From NCBI RefSeq assembly GCF_000424985.1, contig NZ_AUKX01000021.1, positions 1 through 64,000 of the forward strand: DNA of 64,000 nt, read 5' to 3'. The notes under the pieces are model-generated. The model searched no databases, had not been told where the DNA came from, and saw nothing but the letters and a program-made list of their open reading frames with translations. The position numbers were made by a program, and so were the translations under genes. Position 1 is the first letter of the stretch, and each line of letters starts with the position of its first letter. This stretch comes from Arenibacter latericius DSM 15913. GTDB taxonomy: Bacteria; Bacteroidota; Bacteroidia; Flavobacteriales; Flavobacteriaceae. Positions 4,909 to 55,012 of this stretch are shown one piece after another.

Positions 4909-6387
4909 ATGCATGTAATTTATCGTTTAGGGCTTTTAATGCTCAGTTGTTTCTGCATTGTTTCTTGTAAAACCAACGGGAAATCATCTTCATCTAATGT
5001 TGAAGATGTCGATCAAGATTTGTCAGCATCAAAAGGAAAGCCTAATATTATTTATATCCTGGCTGATGATTTAGGTTATGGAGACCTTAGTGTTATGGGG
5101 CAAGAGAAATTTACTACTCCTAATATAGATAAGTTGGCAGCGAAAGGTATGTTGTTTACACAGCATTATTCTGGTAGTACGGTTTGTGCGCCTTCTAGAT
5201 CAGCATTAATGACAGGTATGCATACTGGGCATACTGTAGTGAGGGGGAATTATGAAATTCAGCCAGAGGGGCAATATCCTATACCCGATGAAACTTATAC
5301 GATTGCCGAATTTCTCAAAGAAGCAGGGTATACAACTGGAGCGTTTGGGAAGTGGGGACTTGGGTACCCAGGGTCTGAAGGAGATCCTAATTTTCAAGGT
5401 TTTGATACCTTCTATGGTTTTAACTGTCAGAGAATTGGTCATAATTATTATCCCTACCATTTGTGGTCTAATCAAGACTCTATAGTGTTGCCAGGTAATT
5501 CGGGACAGAATAGAGGGGACTATGCTCCTAGTCTTATCCATGAGAAGACGCTTCAATTTATAGAAGAGAATAAGGATAGACCTTTCTTTGCATATGTTCC
5601 TACTATTATTCCGCATGCTGAATTGGTGGTTCCAGATGAGATTCACAAACAGTACAGTGGTAAATTTGAACCCGAAAAGCCTTATAAGGGGGTAGATAGT
5701 GGTCCTAGTTATAAAAATGGGGGTTACGCTTCTCAGCCAGAACCGCACGCTGCATTTGTTGGCATGGTTCGTCTATTAGATAAGCATGTGGGTGAGATTG
5801 TTGAAAAGGTAGAAGAACTTGGAATTGCAGACAATACCATTATTATATTTACTTCGGACAATGGTCCACACAAAGAGGGTGGTGCAGACCCTGATTATTT
5901 TAATAGTAATGGAAACCTTAAAGGGTATAAGCGCGATCTGTACGAAGGTGGTATCCGTGTGCCAATGGTAATAAAATGGCCAAATGTTATAAAAGAGGGG
6001 GTTGAAACAGCTCATGTTTCTGCATTTTGGGATGTTTTTCCAACTTTAGTAGACCTTTTAGGGGGAGATAAAATAGAAGATTTAGACGGAGTTTCGTTTT
6101 TGCCTACGCTACTTGGGGAAGAGGCAAAACAGAAAGAACATAAATATTTGTATTGGGAGTTTCATGAACTTGGAGGAAGACAGGCTGTTAGAATGGGGGA
6201 TTGGAAAGGAGTAAAATATAATGTGTTGAGAAACCCTGAGGCAAAAATTGAATTATATAATTTAGCCAATGATATAGGGGAGGAGCATAATATTGCAGAA
6301 GATCATCCCGAGATTGTTGCGGAGATGGAAAAAATACTAAAAGAGGCTAGAACACCCTCAGAAGTCTTTACTTTTGGGAAATCTTAA
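4909..6387 (+). CDS. Lipoprotein sulfatase (formylglycine-dependent, S1 type)
   Basis: Hydrolyses sulfate esters, probably on a sulfated polysaccharide or its fragments. 492 residues. The N-terminus MHVIYRLGLLMLSCFCIVSC ends in a lipobox with Cys20, so the protein is membrane-anchored. The sulfatase core starts at IIYILADDLGYGDL (metal-binding Asp pair). The CxPxR motif is VCAPSRSALMTG with Cys93, the residue oxidised to formylglycine by a separate maturase. Further metal/active-site segments are FGKWGLG and FTSDNGPHKEGG. ATG 4909 is chosen because a -7 box overlaps the longer TTG start. It stands alone, with a strong terminator after it and no carbohydrate-active enzyme or SusCD pair next to it. 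Substrate cannot be told. GldJ nearby has a sulfatase-modifying-factor-like fold but is not expected to mature it. Confidence 0.9.
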   Translation: MHVIYRLGLLMLSCFCIVSCKTNGKSSSSNVEDVDQDLSASKGKPNIIYILADDLGYGDLSVMGQEKFTTPNIDKLAAKGMLFTQHYSGSTVCAPSRSALMTGMHTGHTVVRGNYEIQPEGQYPIPDETYTIAEFLKEAGYTTGAFGKWGLGYPGSEGDPNFQGFDTFYGFNCQRIGHNYYPYHLWSNQDSIVLPGNSGQNRGDYAPSLIHEKTLQFIEENKDRPFFAYVPTIIPHAELVVPDEIHKQYSGKFEPEKPYKGVDSGPSYKNGGYASQPEPHAAFVGMVRLLDKHVGEIVEKVEELGIADNTIIIFTSDNGPHKEGGADPDYFNSNGNLKGYKRDLYEGGIRVPMVIKWPNVIKEGVETAHVSAFWDVFPTLVDLLGGDKIEDLDGVSFLPTLLGEEAKQKEHKYLYWEFHELGGRQAVRMGDWKGVKYNVLRNPEAKIELYNLANDIGEEHNIAEDHPEIVAEMEKILKEARTPSEVFTFGKS

Positions 6388-47158: not shown

Positions 47159-48520
47159 ATGCACATTCATTTTATAGCAATAGGCGGGAGCGTTATGCAT
47201 AACCTAGCTTTGGCCTTACACCATAAAGGATATACTGTAACCGGAAGTGATGACATAATATATGAGCCATCACAGAGTAGATTGAAAGAAAGAGGACTTT
47301 TGCCAGAATCTTTCGGATGGTTCCCCGAGAAGATAGAATCGCATTTGGATGCCGTTATTTTAGGTATGCATGCAAAAGCCGATAATCCAGAGCTTTTAAG
47401 AGCACAGGAGCTCGGGCTAAAAATTTATTCTTACCCCGAATTTCTTTATGAACAGGCGAAATATAAAACCAGAGTAGTGATAGGGGGTAGCCATGGTAAA
47501 ACTACTATCACGGCCATGATATTACATGTAATGAAGTATCATGATCGTCCAGTAGATTATGTGATTGGGGCCCAACTCGATGGTTTTGATCAAATGGTTC
47601 ATCTAACGGAAGAAAACGACTTTATTGTTTTAGAGGGGGATGAGTATTTGTCTTCAGTTATCGATAAACGACCTAAGTTTCATCTGTATAAACCTAATAT
47701 TGCTTTATTGAGCGGTATTGCATGGGATCATATTAATGTGTTCCCCACCTTTGAAAAATACTTGGAGCAGTTTAAGGTTTTTGTAGATAGTATAGTAAGA
47801 GGAGGTAGTGTAACCTACAATGAAGAAGATGAAAATGTAAGTAAGATTGTGGAAGCCTCAGAAAATACCATTAGAAAATTACCCTATCATACTCCAGAGT
47901 ATACTATAGAAGATGGCGAAACCATATTGGAAACACCAGATGGCCCAATGCCTATTCCTATTTTTGGAAAACATAACCTTAGTAATTTGGCTGGAGCAAA
48001 ATGGATTTGTCAGAATATGGGCTTAGATGAGGAAGATTTCTATGAGGCTATGTCCACTTTTAAAGGTGCTTCTAAGCGCTTAGAGAAGATAGCAGAAGGA
48101 AAGCTAAGTGTGGCCTATAAGGATTTTGCTCATGCGCCTAGCAAGGTAAAGGCGACAACCATAGCGGTTAAAGATCAATATCCAAGTAGGAAGCTAGTCG
48201 CCTGTTTAGAACTGCATACTTATAGTAGTTTTAATCCAGAATTTATTAAAGAGTATAAAGGAGCTTTGGAAGCTGCAGAAGTCGCAGCGGTATTTTATTT
48301 GCCAGAATCGGTTAAGATAAAAGGACTTAAAGAAGTATCCGTAGATCAAATTAAAGAAGCCTTTGGTCGTGAAGATTTACAGGTCTTTACTAACAAAGAG
48401 GAATTTAGTCAGTTTGTACTTGGACAACATTATGAAAACAAAGTACTTCTTTTGATGAGTTCAGGCACGTATGGTGGACTTAATCTGGAGGAAGTTAAAA
48501 ATAAGGTAAGCAATGCTTAA
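47159..48520 (+). CDS. mpl: UDP-N-acetylmuramate:L-Ala-gamma-D-Glu-meso-DAP ligase (murein tripeptide recycling)
   Basis: Joins recycled murein tripeptide to UDP-MurNAc, bypassing MurC/D/E. 453 aa. MHIHFIAIGGSVMHNLALAL at the N-terminus (Rossmann Gly-rich loop of MurC/Mpl), TGSDDIIYEPSQ, P-loop VIGGSHGKTTITAMILH, LEGDEYLSS, GKHNLSNLAGA, and DFAHAPSKVKAT in the C-domain, which marks Mpl rather than MurC. Its stop lies 11 bp before the decayed susD tail, and the first good terminator after it is the one belonging to that remnant. Confidence 0.93.
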   Translation: MHIHFIAIGGSVMHNLALALHHKGYTVTGSDDIIYEPSQSRLKERGLLPESFGWFPEKIESHLDAVILGMHAKADNPELLRAQELGLKIYSYPEFLYEQAKYKTRVVIGGSHGKTTITAMILHVMKYHDRPVDYVIGAQLDGFDQMVHLTEENDFIVLEGDEYLSSVIDKRPKFHLYKPNIALLSGIAWDHINVFPTFEKYLEQFKVFVDSIVRGGSVTYNEEDENVSKIVEASENTIRKLPYHTPEYTIEDGETILETPDGPMPIPIFGKHNLSNLAGAKWICQNMGLDEEDFYEAMSTFKGASKRLEKIAEGKLSVAYKDFAHAPSKVKATTIAVKDQYPSRKLVACLELHTYSSFNPEFIKEYKGALEAAEVAAVFYLPESVKIKGLKEVSVDQIKEAFGREDLQVFTNKEEFSQFVLGQHYENKVLLLMSSGTYGGLNLEEVKNKVSNA

Positions 48521-48531
48521 GTAGTTTCCTG

Positions 48532-48687
48532 TGTTTATATTGGTTGCCAAGGAGATATAACCACCGATGTTAGAGGAGGGAGGTTGTTTTAGAGGAAAGT
48601 TAATATTACCCAATCCCTCAGGCATAAATAGACTTAAGTGTGGGAGCCAGTAGACAGCCAATCTAAACACAAAATCCTGGTTACTAA
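48532..48687 (+). pseudogene. susD C-terminal remnant
   Basis: Read in the susD frame, the copy encodes the end of SusD (G-D-I-T-T-D-V-R-G-G as in the intact protein). It then hits a TAG at 48590-48592, and indels after that shift the frame. The position equivalent to the susD stop (54129-54131) is TAA 48685-48687. No 5' part of susD and no susC lies upstream: mpl comes immediately before. It is the residue of a former copy that lost all but its last ~50 codons. Confidence 0.85.
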
Positions 48688-48721
48688 GAATTAGGATTTA
48701 ATTAAGAAAAATCATTTATTA

Positions 48722-48760
48722 AAGAAGCCATTCTGAAATTCAGAATGGCTTCTTTTTTTT
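48722..48760 (+). terminator. Terminator carried by the susD remnant, now behind mpl
   Basis: 14-bp perfect stem AAGAAGCCATTCTG (48722-48735) with its complement 48741-48754, loop AAATT, then T to 48760. Identical in stem to the terminator after the intact susD, although the pseudogene before it has decayed. Retention suggests it is used by mpl. Confidence 0.85.
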
Positions 48761-48763
48761 GTT

Positions 48764-49044
48764 AGGTCTAGCCTCTCTTTATAGCTTGTTTTGTGGAAAA
48801 ATTGTTTAATGCCGTTTATAAGGATTGCTTATTACTATAATTTAATGTAAAGTTATTCTAAGTTATATAGCTGTTCTACTTCGGATTTCCTAAAAATCGA
48901 TTTTGAGGGTAATCTTTAACATCTTAATTTTTTCACTTTAACATAAGTTTGTATATTTCGCTCTTGGAATTATGAATAGTAAAACTGGGGTTCATTATTT
49001 TATTAAGTCCAAAAAAAATTAACTAACTAATAACTAAATTAATT
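48764..49044 (+). promoter_or_regulatory. susC upstream region
   Basis: About 280 bp with no gene. The best promoter candidate is TATATTTC at 48952-48959, one base off TAnnTTTG, which would leave an ~80-nt leader rich in ACTAA repeats before ATG 49045. No sigma/anti-sigma or hybrid two-component regulator gene adjoins. Confidence 0.3.
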
Positions 49045-52000
49045 ATGATTGAAAGAACATTGTTATTCTTGAAATTACGGCGAAAAATTTTTTCGTACAA
49101 CACAGGTCTTATGCTGCTAATGCTAGGCCTTGTTTTTCCAGCCTCATTGTTAGCGGCTAATGATGGAGCTGTAACCTCCAGTAGTAATCTTCAAAACCCT
49201 ATTACTGGTGTTGTGGTGGATGATGAAGGTATGCCCATTCCGGGGGCCAATGTATTAGAAAAAGGTACAACCAACGGAACGGTTACTGATTTTGATGGGA
49301 ATTATAGTATTAATGCGGCATCTGATGCGGTATTGGTTTTTTCCTATATCGGTTTTAAAAGTATAGAGGTTGCTGTAGATGGTCGCAGTTCTATAGATGT
49401 AAGTTTAAATACTGATGTAACTGCCTTGGAAGAAATCGTGGTTGTAGGGTATGGTACTCAAAGAAAGCAAGATTTAACCGGTGCTGTTTCAGTAGTAAAG
49501 ACTGAGGATTTAGCAAAGCAACCTTCTGGGCAGGTAACCAGTCAGCTGCAAGGTAGAGCTTCTGGGGTTACAATTACTGGTGGAGGACAGCCAGGTGAGG
49601 CACCTCAAATTAAAATTAGAGGATCTAATACCTTTGGTAATAACAATCCGCTTTATGTAGTAGATGGTATTCCTACTGATAATATTAATGACCTTAACCC
49701 AAATGATGTAGAGTCTATGCAGGTCTTAAAGGATGCCGGTTCTGCTTCTATCTATGGGTCAAGAGCAGCGAATGGGGTAATTGTGATTACCACTAAAAAA
49801 GGAAAAGGTAAAATGAAGGTTACCTATGATGCCTATTACGGGACTCAAATGGTTCAGAAGGGTAATCCATGGAATATTCTGTCGTCTCAAGAAATGGCAG
49901 ACCTTACTTTTATGGCTTTGAGAAATACAAACCCTGGGGACCCAATTAATCATAGTCAATATGGGAATGGAGCCTCCCCTGTGTTACCAAATTATATTGC
50001 GCCCGTAGGTGCAGATACAGTAGATGAGTCGTTATATAACGTAAACCCTTATTATACTAGTAGTTCTGATTTAGATAATTTTTATAGAATTGTAAAAGCA
50101 AATAAAGAGGGAACTAATTGGTTTCAAGAAATTTTCAACCCTGCTAGTATTACTAGTCATAACCTGTCTGTTAGTAATGGAGGTGAGAAAGGGAGTTATT
50201 TATTCTCCTTAAACTACTTTGATCAAGAAGGAACTTTAGATAACACCTATTTAAAGCGTTATACCATGCGTTCTAATTCTGTGTTTAATGTTACAGAAAA
50301 TATTAGAATCGGTCAGAACCTAAGTTTTAGTGTTAGAGACAATCCTCAGATTGGCGCATTATCCGAAGGAAGTGCTATTGGTATGGCTATGAGACAGCAA
50401 CCGATTATTCCAGTAAGGGATATTAAAGGGAACTTTGCAGGGTCTTTTGGTTCAGATCTTGGTAATGCTCGGAATCCTGTTGCTATATTAGAACGTTTAA
50501 AAAATAATAGAGGAGTGTCTAACCGTATATTCGGTAATATCTTTGCCGAAGTTGATTTCTTAGAGAATTTCACCTTAAGAACAAGTTTTGGTGGACAGTA
50601 TTTCTCCAATAGCTTTAACTCTTTCACCTTTCCTGAGTATGAAAATGCTGAAAACAACTCTGTAAATTCATACACTGAAGGAGCACACACTAATTACAAT
50701 TATACTTGGACTAATACGTTGCAGTACAAGAATACCTTTAACGACGTCCACAATATTAACGTTCTAGTAGGTACAGAAGCCTATCAGAATAGAGGAAGAG
50801 AAGTTGGTGGTTCTATGCAAGGATATTTTTCCTTTGACCCAGATTATGTAAGCTTGTCTACAGGGTCTGGTACACAAACTAACTATAGCTGGAAATATCA
50901 AGATGCGTTATCGTCTCTTATAGGTAGATTAGATTACAATTTTGATGATAAGTATTTATTAAGTGCTACTATCCGTAGAGATGGGTCATCTAGATTTTTA
51001 AATAATCAATATGGATGGTTCCCAGCAGTTAGTGCAGGTTGGAATATTAGTAATGAAAACTTTATGCCAGAACTAGATTGGTTAAACGATCTTAAGATAC
51101 GTGGTGGATATGGAGTTATGGGGAATCAATTAAATGTAGATCCTTCAAATTCATTTACCACTTTTGGAGGTAATCAGGAAACTTCCTATTATGGTATCTC
51201 TGGAGGTAATCAGACTACTGATGAAGGTTTTCAGCAAACGAGAATTGGAAATCCGAATGCAAAATGGGAAAAGAATATCAACTCCAACATCGGTTTGGAT
51301 GCTAACCTATTTAATAATTCGGTACAGTTAAGTTTAGATTACTATAAAAAAGACGTAAAAGATTTACTGTTTAATCCAGATCAGCCAGCAACAGTAGGGA
51401 CCGCTACAGTTCCTTTTGTAAATGTTGCGGAGATGTCTAATAGTGGATTAGATATGGATGTGTCTACCTTCTTTAACTTAACGGACGACCTACGTTTAAA
51501 TACTACTGTTACCTTCACTACTTATCAGAATGAGATAAAGAAGATTGCTGATGGTTATTCTTATTTTGATAGAGAAGGAAGACGTTTTAATGGTAGTACT
51601 ATCATTAGAAACGCAGTTGGGCATTCTGTAAGTGAATTTTACGGATACAAGATTGCAGGATTCTGGAATTCAGCAGATGAGATTGACGATGCTAATGCTG
51701 GTGCTGTAGCCGCAACAGGAGATGCCAATGCAACCTATCAGTCAGACGTTGCTGTAGGTAGATTCCGTTATGAAGATATAGATGGTGATGGTAGAATTAC
51801 TGCTGATGACCGTACTTTTATTGGAAATCCTAATCCTGACTTTACCTATGGATTAAACATAGAGTTGCTATATAAAAATTGGGATTTAAGTATGTTTTTA
51901 TATGGTTCTCAAGGGAATGATATTTGGAATAATGTAAGATGGTGGACAGATTTTTACAGTTCATTTACAGGAGCTAAAAGTCACACTGCTTTATACGATT

Positions 52001-52335
52001 CCTGGACTCCAGAAAACACAAATGCTACCGCTCCTATTCAGGAAACTACTGGTTCATTTAGTGTTGCGGATGTGCCTAACTCTTACTTCGTTGAAGATGG
52101 ATCTTATTTAAGAGCAAAACACATTCAGTTGGGGTATACTTTTCCTTCAGATATGATGAGTAAAGCTAATATTTCAAAATTAAGGCTATATGCCCAAATG
52201 GTTAATGCATTTACTATTACTTCTTACTCTGGGATTGATCCTGAGATTTCTGGGGGAACAGTTAATTTTGGAATTGACGAGGGGGCTTATCCTAATCAAA
52301 GACAACTTCTTTTTGGGGTAAATGTTATTTTTTAA
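49045..52335 (+). CDS. susC: SusC/RagA-family TonB-dependent outer-membrane transporter
   Basis: 1096 aa. Signal peptide ending near LLAAND. A carboxypeptidase-D-regulatory-like domain (ITGVVVDDEGMPIPGANVLE to VLVFSYIGFKSIEV, ~50-125), then the SusC plug start EEIVVVGYGTQRKQDLTGAV (~130-150), SQLQGRASGVTI and YVVDGIPTDNINDLNPNDVE with GSRAANGVIVITTKKG. The barrel follows and ends in PNQRQLLFGVNVIF, a typical beta-strand end. It forms a lidded import channel with the SusD lipoprotein. The susD start overlaps its stop (TAATG). Ligand unknown: no glycoside hydrolase, lyase or peptidase gene adjoins, so it may serve a peptide or glycan broken down elsewhere. Confidence 0.95.
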   Translation: MIERTLLFLKLRRKIFSYNTGLMLLMLGLVFPASLLAANDGAVTSSSNLQNPITGVVVDDEGMPIPGANVLEKGTTNGTVTDFDGNYSINAASDAVLVFSYIGFKSIEVAVDGRSSIDVSLNTDVTALEEIVVVGYGTQRKQDLTGAVSVVKTEDLAKQPSGQVTSQLQGRASGVTITGGGQPGEAPQIKIRGSNTFGNNNPLYVVDGIPTDNINDLNPNDVESMQVLKDAGSASIYGSRAANGVIVITTKKGKGKMKVTYDAYYGTQMVQKGNPWNILSSQEMADLTFMALRNTNPGDPINHSQYGNGASPVLPNYIAPVGADTVDESLYNVNPYYTSSSDLDNFYRIVKANKEGTNWFQEIFNPASITSHNLSVSNGGEKGSYLFSLNYFDQEGTLDNTYLKRYTMRSNSVFNVTENIRIGQNLSFSVRDNPQIGALSEGSAIGMAMRQQPIIPVRDIKGNFAGSFGSDLGNARNPVAILERLKNNRGVSNRIFGNIFAEVDFLENFTLRTSFGGQYFSNSFNSFTFPEYENAENNSVNSYTEGAHTNYNYTWTNTLQYKNTFNDVHNINVLVGTEAYQNRGREVGGSMQGYFSFDPDYVSLSTGSGTQTNYSWKYQDALSSLIGRLDYNFDDKYLLSATIRRDGSSRFLNNQYGWFPAVSAGWNISNENFMPELDWLNDLKIRGGYGVMGNQLNVDPSNSFTTFGGNQETSYYGISGGNQTTDEGFQQTRIGNPNAKWEKNINSNIGLDANLFNNSVQLSLDYYKKDVKDLLFNPDQPATVGTATVPFVNVAEMSNSGLDMDVSTFFNLTDDLRLNTTVTFTTYQNEIKKIADGYSYFDREGRRFNGSTIIRNAVGHSVSEFYGYKIAGFWNSADEIDDANAGAVAATGDANATYQSDVAVGRFRYEDIDGDGRITADDRTFIGNPNPDFTYGLNIELLYKNWDLSMFLYGSQGNDIWNNVRWWTDFYSSFTGAKSHTALYDSWTPENTNATAPIQETTGSFSVADVPNSYFVEDGSYLRAKHIQLGYTFPSDMMSKANISKLRLYAQMVNAFTITSYSGIDPEISGGTVNFGIDEGAYPNQRQLLFGVNVIF

Positions 52336-54131
52336 TGAAGATGAATAATAAACTAAAGTATATGAAAATCATAAAACAAATAAGTAGACTATATATTCCT
52401 GTTTTTGCATCGCTATGCATAAGTAGTTGTACCGATAGTTTCTTGGAGCAACCTGCTTTGGGAGCGTTGAGTGAAGATGTAATCGCAAATAAGGAAGGTG
52501 CAGAAAAGCTTCTAATAGGGGCTTATGCTGCCTTGGATGGAGCAGGATTCGGCGGTGGCGCCTGGGAAGCTGCCCCTGATAACTGGGTGTATGGTACTGT
52601 AGCTGGAGGAGAAGCTAGTAAAGGAAGTTTTGGAGGGGATCAGCCCGCCATTGATCAAATTGTAAAGTTTATCTCCAATCCATCTAACGGGTATTATAAT
52701 TCTAAATGGAAAGCACTCTATGAAGGAGTTAAACGGACTAATAACACGCTAAAACTCTTATCTATTGCAACAGAGATTTCACCTGAGGATAGTAAGAATA
52801 TTGCAGCTCAAGCACGTTTCTTGCGCGGACATTATTACTTCGAGCTGAAGAAAATGTGGAATATGGTGCCGTGGGTAGATGAAACCACTGAAGATCCTAA
52901 ACAGCCTAATAATGTAGATATCTGGCCAAATATTGAGGCTGATTTTCAATTTGCATTTGAGAATTTACCCGCGACACAGAGCGATTTTGGTAGAGCAAAT
53001 AAATGGGCAGCCGCTGCTTATTTAGGGAAAACATACCTCTATCAAGGGAAATTTCCTGAAGCCAAAACTACATTTACCGATGTAATCAATAATGGAGTGA
53101 ATCAAGGTGGTGTAAAGTATGCCCTTATCGACAGGTTCAGCGATAACTTTGATGCTGCTGAAGAAAATAATTCAGAGACTGTTTTCGATATTCAAATGGT
53201 AGCGAATGACGGTACGGGTACTATTGGTAACGCTAATCAAGGAGGGATGCTAAATTTCCCATATAACAGCCCATTTAGATGCTGTGGATTTTTCCAACCT
53301 TCACAAGATTTAGTGAATTCCTATAAAACAGATCCAGTGACCGGATTGCCAGATCTTAATTCTTACAATCAAAATCCAGTTAAGAGTGATATGGGTATTA
53401 CAAGTAATGATCCTTTTACACCTTATACCGGGACATTAGACCCTAGATTAGATTGGACAGTAGGAAGAAGAGGCGTTCCTTATCATGATTGGGGTAAACA
53501 CCCAGGTGCTGCGTGGATTAGAGAGCAAACTTACGGTGGACCTTATGCACCTAAAAAGAATATCTATTGGCAAGCAACCCAAGACCTGTATTCAGATCAA
53601 AGTTCTTGGGCTCCTGGTACAGCACTTAATGTTCGTGTGATTCGTTTTGCAGATGTGCTTTTAATGGCAGCAGAAGCGGAAGCACATGCAGGTAGCTTAG
53701 ATGTGGCTCTTGGTTACGTAAATAAAGTGCGCCAAAGAGCAGCCAATCCAGATGGATTCTTAAAAGAGTACATAGACGATAACGATCCGATGGCAGGTTT
53801 TAAAGAAACTTCCACCGCTGCAAATTATACGATATCCGACTATACTTTAGCTGATTTTGCTTCTAAAGAAATGGCGTTAGAGAGAATTTACTTTGAAAGA
53901 AAATTGGAGCTTGCTATGGAAGGACATCGTTTTTTCGATTTGGTAAGATGGGGTATAGCAGAGGAAACTCTTAATGCTTATTTTGATTACCAAGGAGATA
54001 TAACTACCGATGTTAGAGGAGGGAAGTTTATTCCAGGGAAAAGTGAATATTACCCAATCCCTCAAGCACAGATAGACTTAAGTGTGGGAGCCGACGGGCA
54101 GCCAACCTTAACACAAAATCCTGGTTACTAA
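52335..54131 (+). CDS. susD: SusD/RagB-family surface lipoprotein
   Basis: 598 aa. N-terminal signal with lipobox LCISSC (Cys32), an ATG coupled to the susC stop (alternative ATGs at 52341 and 52362). SusD fold: TPR-like helices with ARFLRGHYYFELKKMW and KWAAAAYLGKTYLYQGKFPEA, NSETVFDIQM, RFADVLLMAAEAEAHAG with YVNKVRQRAA, and ERKLELAMEGHRFFDLVRWG at the end, then YYPIPQAQIDL. It forms the lid of the SusC channel and binds the substrate. The region at 53975-54131 and the following terminator are repeated in decayed form before susC. Confidence 0.95.
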   Translation: MKMNNKLKYMKIIKQISRLYIPVFASLCISSCTDSFLEQPALGALSEDVIANKEGAEKLLIGAYAALDGAGFGGGAWEAAPDNWVYGTVAGGEASKGSFGGDQPAIDQIVKFISNPSNGYYNSKWKALYEGVKRTNNTLKLLSIATEISPEDSKNIAAQARFLRGHYYFELKKMWNMVPWVDETTEDPKQPNNVDIWPNIEADFQFAFENLPATQSDFGRANKWAAAAYLGKTYLYQGKFPEAKTTFTDVINNGVNQGGVKYALIDRFSDNFDAAEENNSETVFDIQMVANDGTGTIGNANQGGMLNFPYNSPFRCCGFFQPSQDLVNSYKTDPVTGLPDLNSYNQNPVKSDMGITSNDPFTPYTGTLDPRLDWTVGRRGVPYHDWGKHPGAAWIREQTYGGPYAPKKNIYWQATQDLYSDQSSWAPGTALNVRVIRFADVLLMAAEAEAHAGSLDVALGYVNKVRQRAANPDGFLKEYIDDNDPMAGFKETSTAANYTISDYTLADFASKEMALERIYFERKLELAMEGHRFFDLVRWGIAEETLNAYFDYQGDITTDVRGGKFIPGKSEYYPIPQAQIDLSVGADGQPTLTQNPGY

Positions 54132-54207
54132 TAACTAGGCTTTAATTAAGAAAAGTCTTTTATTAAAGAAGCCATTCTGAAATTCAGAATGGCTTCTTTT
54201 TTTTGTT
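53975..54207 (+). repeat. Intact susD 3' end and terminator (direct repeat, downstream copy)
   Basis: Functional partner of the decayed copy at 48532-48763: last ~52 codons of susD, the 3' untranslated segment and the hairpin. Offset between copies is 5443-5444 bp, changing by one at an indel. Confidence 0.9.
54166..54204 (+). terminator. susCD terminator
   Basis: AAGAAGCCATTCTG (54166-54179) with complement 54185-54198, loop AAATT, T-run to 54204. 34 bp after the susD stop. Confidence 0.88.
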
Positions 54208-54313: not shown

Positions 54314-55012
54314 ATGCAAGAAAAACCAACCTCCTTCTCCATAAAAAAATGGTCCGATGATGATAAACCACGAGAGAAGTTATTAAATAAGGGAAGTGGG
54401 GTGCTTTCAGATGCAGAATTAATCGCAATTTTAATTGGTTCTGGAAGTCGAAATGAAAGTGCAGTAGAACTCTCAAAACGAATTTTAGCCTCGGTTAATA
54501 ACAACCTTAATGAGTTAGGAAGGCTTTCTGTAAAACAATTAATGCAATTCAAAGGCATTGGAGAGGCAAAAGCAGTTTCAATTGTTGCTGCTTTGGAGAT
54601 AGGACGTAGACGAAGAGATGGTAATGGATTGAAGGTTATCAAAATCAAGTCGAGCACTAGTGTTTTCGATCTTTTACAACCTAAAATGGGGGAGCTACCT
54701 CATGAAGAGTTTTGGATTGTATACCTCAATAATTCTAATAAAGTGTTACTTGCAAAACAACAAAGTAAAGGTGGGATTACCGGAACTTTGGTGGATGTTC
54801 GTCTGGTATTAAAGCAAGCCTTGGAGCTTGGTGCTGTTGGGCTAATCCTTGCGCATAATCACCCTTCTGGAACTTTAAAGCCTAGTGAAGCTGATAAACA
54901 GATTACTCAAAAATTAAAAATAGCATCCCAAGCCTTGGACATAAAAGTGTTAGATCATATCATCATTACTCAAAAAGATTATTTTAGTTTTGCCGATGAA
55001 GGCCTGCTCTGA
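54314..55012 (+). CDS. radC: RadC-family JAB/MPN-domain protein
   Basis: 232 aa. N-terminal helix-hairpin-helix region (KGSGVLSDAELIAILIGSGS, then LMQFKGIGEAKAVSIVAALE). A C-terminal MPN metalloprotease-like domain follows, with EEFWIVYLNNSNKVL, KGGITGTLVDVRLVLKQALE and the JAMM His-x-His-Pro-Ser-Gly in ILAHNHPSGTLKPSEAD. The historical repair role is not well supported and the true function is unclear. ATG 54314; upstream TATCTTTA (one base off the -7 consensus) lies at about 54301, very near the start. Not accompanied by mobile-element genes. Confidence 0.92.
   Translation: MQEKPTSFSIKKWSDDDKPREKLLNKGSGVLSDAELIAILIGSGSRNESAVELSKRILASVNNNLNELGRLSVKQLMQFKGIGEAKAVSIVAALEIGRRRRDGNGLKVIKIKSSTSVFDLLQPKMGELPHEEFWIVYLNNSNKVLLAKQQSKGGITGTLVDVRLVLKQALELGAVGLILAHNHPSGTLKPSEADKQITQKLKIASQALDIKVLDHIIITQKDYFSFADEGLL

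Follow-up and report, generated by a model that had tools for sequence, protein, structure and literature searches.

A decayed susD 3′ end between mpl and susC

The window analysed here is a 64,000-nt stretch of the genome of Arenibacter latericius DSM 15913 (G000 in what follows). The order of genes on its + strand is mpl, a relic, susC, susD and radC, and the features of this locus are as follows:

47159..48520, + strand: ORF of 453 aa for a Mur-ligase-family protein (ORF and Pfam), which we take to be mpl; the relic lies directly 3′ of its stop codon
48521..48533, + strand: 13 nt from the mpl stop to the clear susD-like part; the counterpart in A. certesii (G007) is susD-like
48532..48720, + strand: decayed susD 3′ end and 3′ untranslated part (repeat search, BLAST), with a 1-nt deletion and several stops
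48721..48763, + strand: relic hairpin (16 pairs, loop of 3) and T-run, a probable terminator behind mpl (fold, terminator scan)
49045..52335, + strand: susC, TonB-dependent receptor of 1096 aa (ORF; Pfam Plug, CarbopepD_reg_2 and TonB_dep_Rec_b-barrel)
52335..54131, + strand: susD, an intact nutrient-uptake gene encoding 598 aa, from whose 3′ end the relic derives (ORF; Pfam SusD_RagB, 161.4 bits, and SusD-like_3)
54165..54207, + strand: hairpin and T-run behind susD, with the same sequence as the relic hairpin (fold, terminator scan)
54314..55012, + strand: radC, the right-hand neighbour of susCD (Pfam RadC and UPF0758_N)

The product of mpl exceeds the Pfam cut-offs for Mur_ligase and Mur_ligase_M, while Mur_ligase_C falls just below its own (28.1 bits against 28.4).

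Positions 48532-48763 carry a second, decayed susD 3′ end, which corresponds to the last ~155 nt of the gene plus its 3′ untranslated part, hairpin and T-run. A repeat search of the window pairs 48578-48763 with 54022-54207 (88%) and 48532-48598 with 53975-54041 (82%), and BLAST with the susD tail gives 88% across positions 16-248 of the 256-nt query, i.e., 233 columns. An earlier, sequence-only reading had aligned 48532-48763 with 53975-54207 through the end of susD, the 3′ untranslated sequence and the terminator, and this is borne out: the mpl-susC spacer aligns to the window susD tail with a score of 365.5, far above the maximum of 82 among 500 shuffles. Chance likeness, or the ordinary conservation to be expected among susD ends, is practically out of the question, given these scores, a similarity that spans the non-coding spacer and the hairpin too, and no match elsewhere in the genome. 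In effect, BLAST finds no third copy in the 4.48-Mb assembly, the only other matches being those of the two palindromic hairpins on the reverse strand. A dispersed element is also ruled out, as the sequence occurs at two places only within its own genome.

Between 48534 and the end of the stem, the relic differs from susD by 27 substitutions and one 1-nt deletion. It had been stated that this copy carries a stop, TAG at 48590-48592, and frameshifts. The TAG is real and lies in the frame that is read on past the 1-nt deletion, and further stops are seen by eye in the susD register (TAA 48601-48603, 48625-48627, 48664-48666); by contrast, that single deletion is the only frameshift. Differences between the window relic and its own susD fall on the three codon positions as 9, 10 and 5, whereas for two functional tails the figures are 0, 1 and 16. 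Thus, the stops, the frameshift and the changes across all codon positions indicate that coding constraint has been lost in this pseudogene fragment. The similarity to the local susD is even from end to end, at 24-27/30 per block. Of the first 14 nt past the mpl stop, 5/14 match the window susD tail in G000, against 10/14 for the corresponding stretch of G007. The microhomology AATGCTTA, shared by the end of mpl and susD, was considered as the window junction and rejected, because 14 other bases intervene before the homology begins.

The relic is of a known kind, a truncated and decayed gene copy. Such relics are left in bacterial genomes by tandem duplication and deletion, and the present one resembles them in being a partial, out-of-frame copy of a neighbouring gene that drifts without constraint. 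It differs from them in its intact hairpin and in a sequence that is younger than the apparent age of the junction.

Conservation of the hairpin behind mpl

The hairpins of the relic and of susD in the window are identical in sequence, each with a folding energy of -23.2 kcal/mol, a value equalled by none of 200 shuffles of the relic hairpin. Both are called terminator-like in a scan that finds 6 such sites in the stretch against 3.7 expected, and a search for the exact stem, tolerating two mismatches at most, finds only these two places in the genome. The window relic shares with intrinsic (Rho-independent) terminators a long stem, a small loop and a T-run, and differs from them in having been copied from another gene.

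Drifted coding bases next to an unchanged terminator stem had been taken as a sign of selection on the terminator. In the window relic, 36/36 hairpin columns are identical to susD, against 166/203 elsewhere (changed, 0/36 against 37/203; p = 0.0014), a count of 203 columns that takes in the doubtful, non-homologous-looking first 14. Once these are set aside, changes are confined to the other parts, with 27/192 changed against 0/24 in the stem (one-sided p = 0.033 in a test that, like the others given here, treats sites as independent). As the window copy is young, this modest contrast would by itself point only poorly to selection on the terminator. It is mainly the older relic of A. certesii that supports selection on the stem: its stem is unchanged (0/24), against 56/191 changed sites elsewhere when it is compared with the window tail (p = 0.00044) and 53/192 when it is compared with its own tail (p = 0.00074). 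This relic is older, it has changed elsewhere, and its loop has changed while its stem has not; consequently, the unchanged stem does not simply reflect recency. Against selection, however, the stem between the two functional susD tails of G000 and G007 also shows 0/24 changes against 25/193 elsewhere (p = 0.044).

The following also speaks against selection on the terminator. The relic hairpin of G007 keeps a stem of -20.8 kcal/mol, but its T-run is interrupted, an erosion that sets it apart from intrinsic terminators, and it is not among the sites called by the terminator scan. The same scan finds zero terminator-like sites in the mpl-susC spacers of G003 and A. nanhaiticus (G008), in which a canonical terminator is thus absent, and only a weak 5-pair site in that of A. 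amylolyticus (G010). For these reasons, protection of the mRNA 3′ end by the hairpin is as possible a role as termination.

Distribution and age of the relic

Both mpl and radC are present in 18/18 Arenibacter genomes, and mpl is followed by susCD in five of them (G000, G007, G010, G003 and G008), with radC on the same stretch in four of the five. The relic behind mpl is found in 2/18 genomes only, those of the marine bacteria G000 and G007; in the latter it lies directly 3′ of mpl, with 74% identity to the window susD tail. In a tree of mpl and radC DNA, these two genomes are sisters (support 100), and G010 and G003 come next. Given this sister relation and no clear relic in the relatives, the simplest origin of the relic is in the common ancestor of the two species.

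In the mpl-susC spacers of G003, G010 and G008, no clear relic was detected with nhmmer profiles, local alignments with shuffles, or long-gap alignments, nor in the G012 spacer with long-gap alignments. The only profile match is in G010, at -4.0 bits, with none in G003 or G008. Among local alignments of the spacers, the best is that of G003 with its own tail, for which 42/500 shuffles are as good. The best of 24 long-gap alignments are G008 with its own tail, G008 with the G003 tail and G003 with the window tail (20, 33 and 47 of 1000 shuffles as good, respectively). Because many comparisons were made, these near misses in G003 and G008 are not counted as relics, and a very decayed relic may be present in either genome.

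Among 80 related susD loci surveyed, the tail is repeated only in L090, an A. certesii contig that is the same as that of G007; in this survey, L091 is too short for the full test, and the length covered upstream of susC varies among loci. In Zunongwangia pacifica (L143), a 38-nt stretch behind susD (about 5917-5954) recurs upstream of susC (764-801) at 84%, which is too short to interpret. Hairpin-like matches of 30-53 nt far from the locus in G004, G002, G009, G017 and G011 are taken to be unrelated similar terminators. In a limited, mostly open-access literature search, no entry listed describes such an arrangement.

The two relics differ in age. Between G000 and G007, four-fold sites differ at 107/219 in susD, 71/147 in mpl and 35/88 in radC. 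The window relic and its own susD tail differ at only 2/21 such sites, against about half between the species, and the relic thus split from susD well after the species split. The G007 relic differs from its own tail at 9/20 and from the window tail at 7/19, so that it is roughly as diverged from both susD genes as one species is from the other, and its age is about that of the species split or older. In a tree of seven sequences, tails and relics together, the window relic pairs with the window tail (FastTree 0.92), and the G007 relic weakly joins this pair (FastTree 0.74, IQ-TREE 59). Sites shared by species number 10 and those shared by relics 8 (one of them inside the mpl stop), with 0 shared crosswise, a mixture that is expected of an old relic that has been partly overwritten.

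In contrast to this difference in age, the position of the relic is the same in both species. In G000 and G007 alike, the spacing from the mpl stop to the TTAT of the susD tail is 14 nt, in a gap-free register with susD, and this common spacing and register speak for one junction. The sequences just past the hairpins of the two species are weakly alike, with 11/1000 shuffles as good. Two points are thus of interest in this locus: the stem has been kept in two species, and the window sequence is younger than its position.

Origin of the relic and remodelling of the locus

The history that appears moderately probable is that a single ancestral junction set a susD tail behind mpl and that, later on, the local susD renewed the window copy, with gene conversion as the probable mechanism. 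In the ancestor of G000 and G007, the final ~170 nt of susD together with its 3′ untranslated part and hairpin would have been joined to the end of mpl, replacing the former 3′ region of this gene. The likeliest route would start with a tandem duplication of susCD, after which a deletion reached from the mpl end into the first susD tail. The two tails would thereby have become direct repeats of ~230 bp flanking susC and susD. In the window lineage, the sequence of the local susD tail would then have replaced that of the relic, most likely through gene conversion; alternatively, the two repeats may have gone through tandem amplification and subsequent collapse. Once overwritten, the relic would have drifted without coding constraint but retained its hairpin, plausibly for a role in terminating or protecting the mpl transcript.

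The earlier reading had offered two origins, the trace of a former second susCD copy or an unequal recombination that deleted one copy and left its tail. The first may still hold, but neither a second full susCD nor an intermediate was found. Each of the 7.7-10 kb loci fetched from the five susCD genomes holds one susC and one susD, with no complete tandem in the mpl-susC interval (in G010, a contig end behind susD limits this result), and no second high-identity susD is among the matches listed, best first, for these genomes. The second fits, but it has to be extended to a two-step history, with a shared old junction and a young window sequence.

The tail might also have been copied in one step, by a template switch or a non-crossover conversion at a few shared bases, in which case a tandem susCD was never present. 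Only the tail is duplicated, and no part of susC or the susD-radC spacer is found past the relic (against this spacer, 232/1000 shuffles are as good for the window and 58/1000 for G007); moreover, a few shared bases (AAA) are seen by eye at the G007 junction. Nevertheless, a duplication that ended at the hairpin, followed by a deletion, explains these observations equally well, and a deletion of susCD that leaves a susD tail is exemplified by G012. One-step copying is a possible but less probable route.

An alternative to a single junction would be two independent acquisitions of a susD tail behind mpl, long ago in G007 and recently in the window lineage. In its favour, the species split long predates the window relic (2/21), the tree pairs this relic with its own tail, and the left homology edges of the two relics differ. 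In addition, the age contrast is seen with no mosaic of old and young sequence inside the window relic, and a second independent event would give the same pattern; it is this even likeness, together with the different left edge, that makes such an event possible. On the other hand, independent breakpoints would rarely agree both in the register to the mpl stop and in the end at the hairpin and T-run, the relic is confined to two sister species of 18, and 8 sites are common to the relics against the tails, some of which can be parallel changes. Two acquisitions are thus rather unlikely, and the shared register and end, together with the sister relation, favour overwriting of a single ancestral copy. 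The differing left edges, the interrupted T-run of G007 and the weak likeness of the right flanks nevertheless count against one junction with later refreshment.

Concerted evolution of direct repeats proceeds by gene conversion, and the locus resembles such cases in that repeats within a genome are more similar than orthologues between species. It differs in that the repeats are here a dead tail and the tail of a working gene, and in that only one lineage is affected. Very tentatively, the locus may be seen as a captured 3′ end and terminator behind mpl, a cell-wall-recycling gene, kept for its stem and renewed from a working donor by recombination between the tails. If so, it would be a small, datable natural case of a gene that inherits the terminator of another gene, with recombination renewing a dead copy from a living one. 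Were the renewal real, susCD would also form a 5.4-kb unit flanked by direct repeats and open to amplification or loss.

The site of susCD has been repeatedly remodelled: two species carry relics, a third has a deletion scar, and 12 more show another arrangement. In A. amylolyticus, contig 7 (L036) breaks just past the susD hairpin, and radC is on another contig, from base 88; a repeat may be hidden at this break. In G012, mpl is followed by a decayed susD tail (L059 981-1277, 94.0 bits) and radC, with susC and most of susD gone, which is, judged from the sequence, an independent loss of susCD in a congener. This scar is like the relic in that a susD 3′ end is left between mpl and radC, and unlike it in that the tail is next to radC and mpl has retained its own hairpin (-25.6 kcal/mol). 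In G012, with the tail away from the end of mpl, the susD hairpin is broken (by eye), and the stretch folds otherwise, into a weaker hairpin at -11.6 kcal/mol, with 2/200 shuffles as good; this is a single case. Finally, the mpl-radC interval is variable in Arenibacter, as in 12 congeners (G001, G002, G004-G006, G009, G011 and G013-G017) mpl is followed by a different ORF, glutamate-racemase-like by eye, and radC lies 49-57 kb off on the same contig in 11 of them and on another contig in G017.
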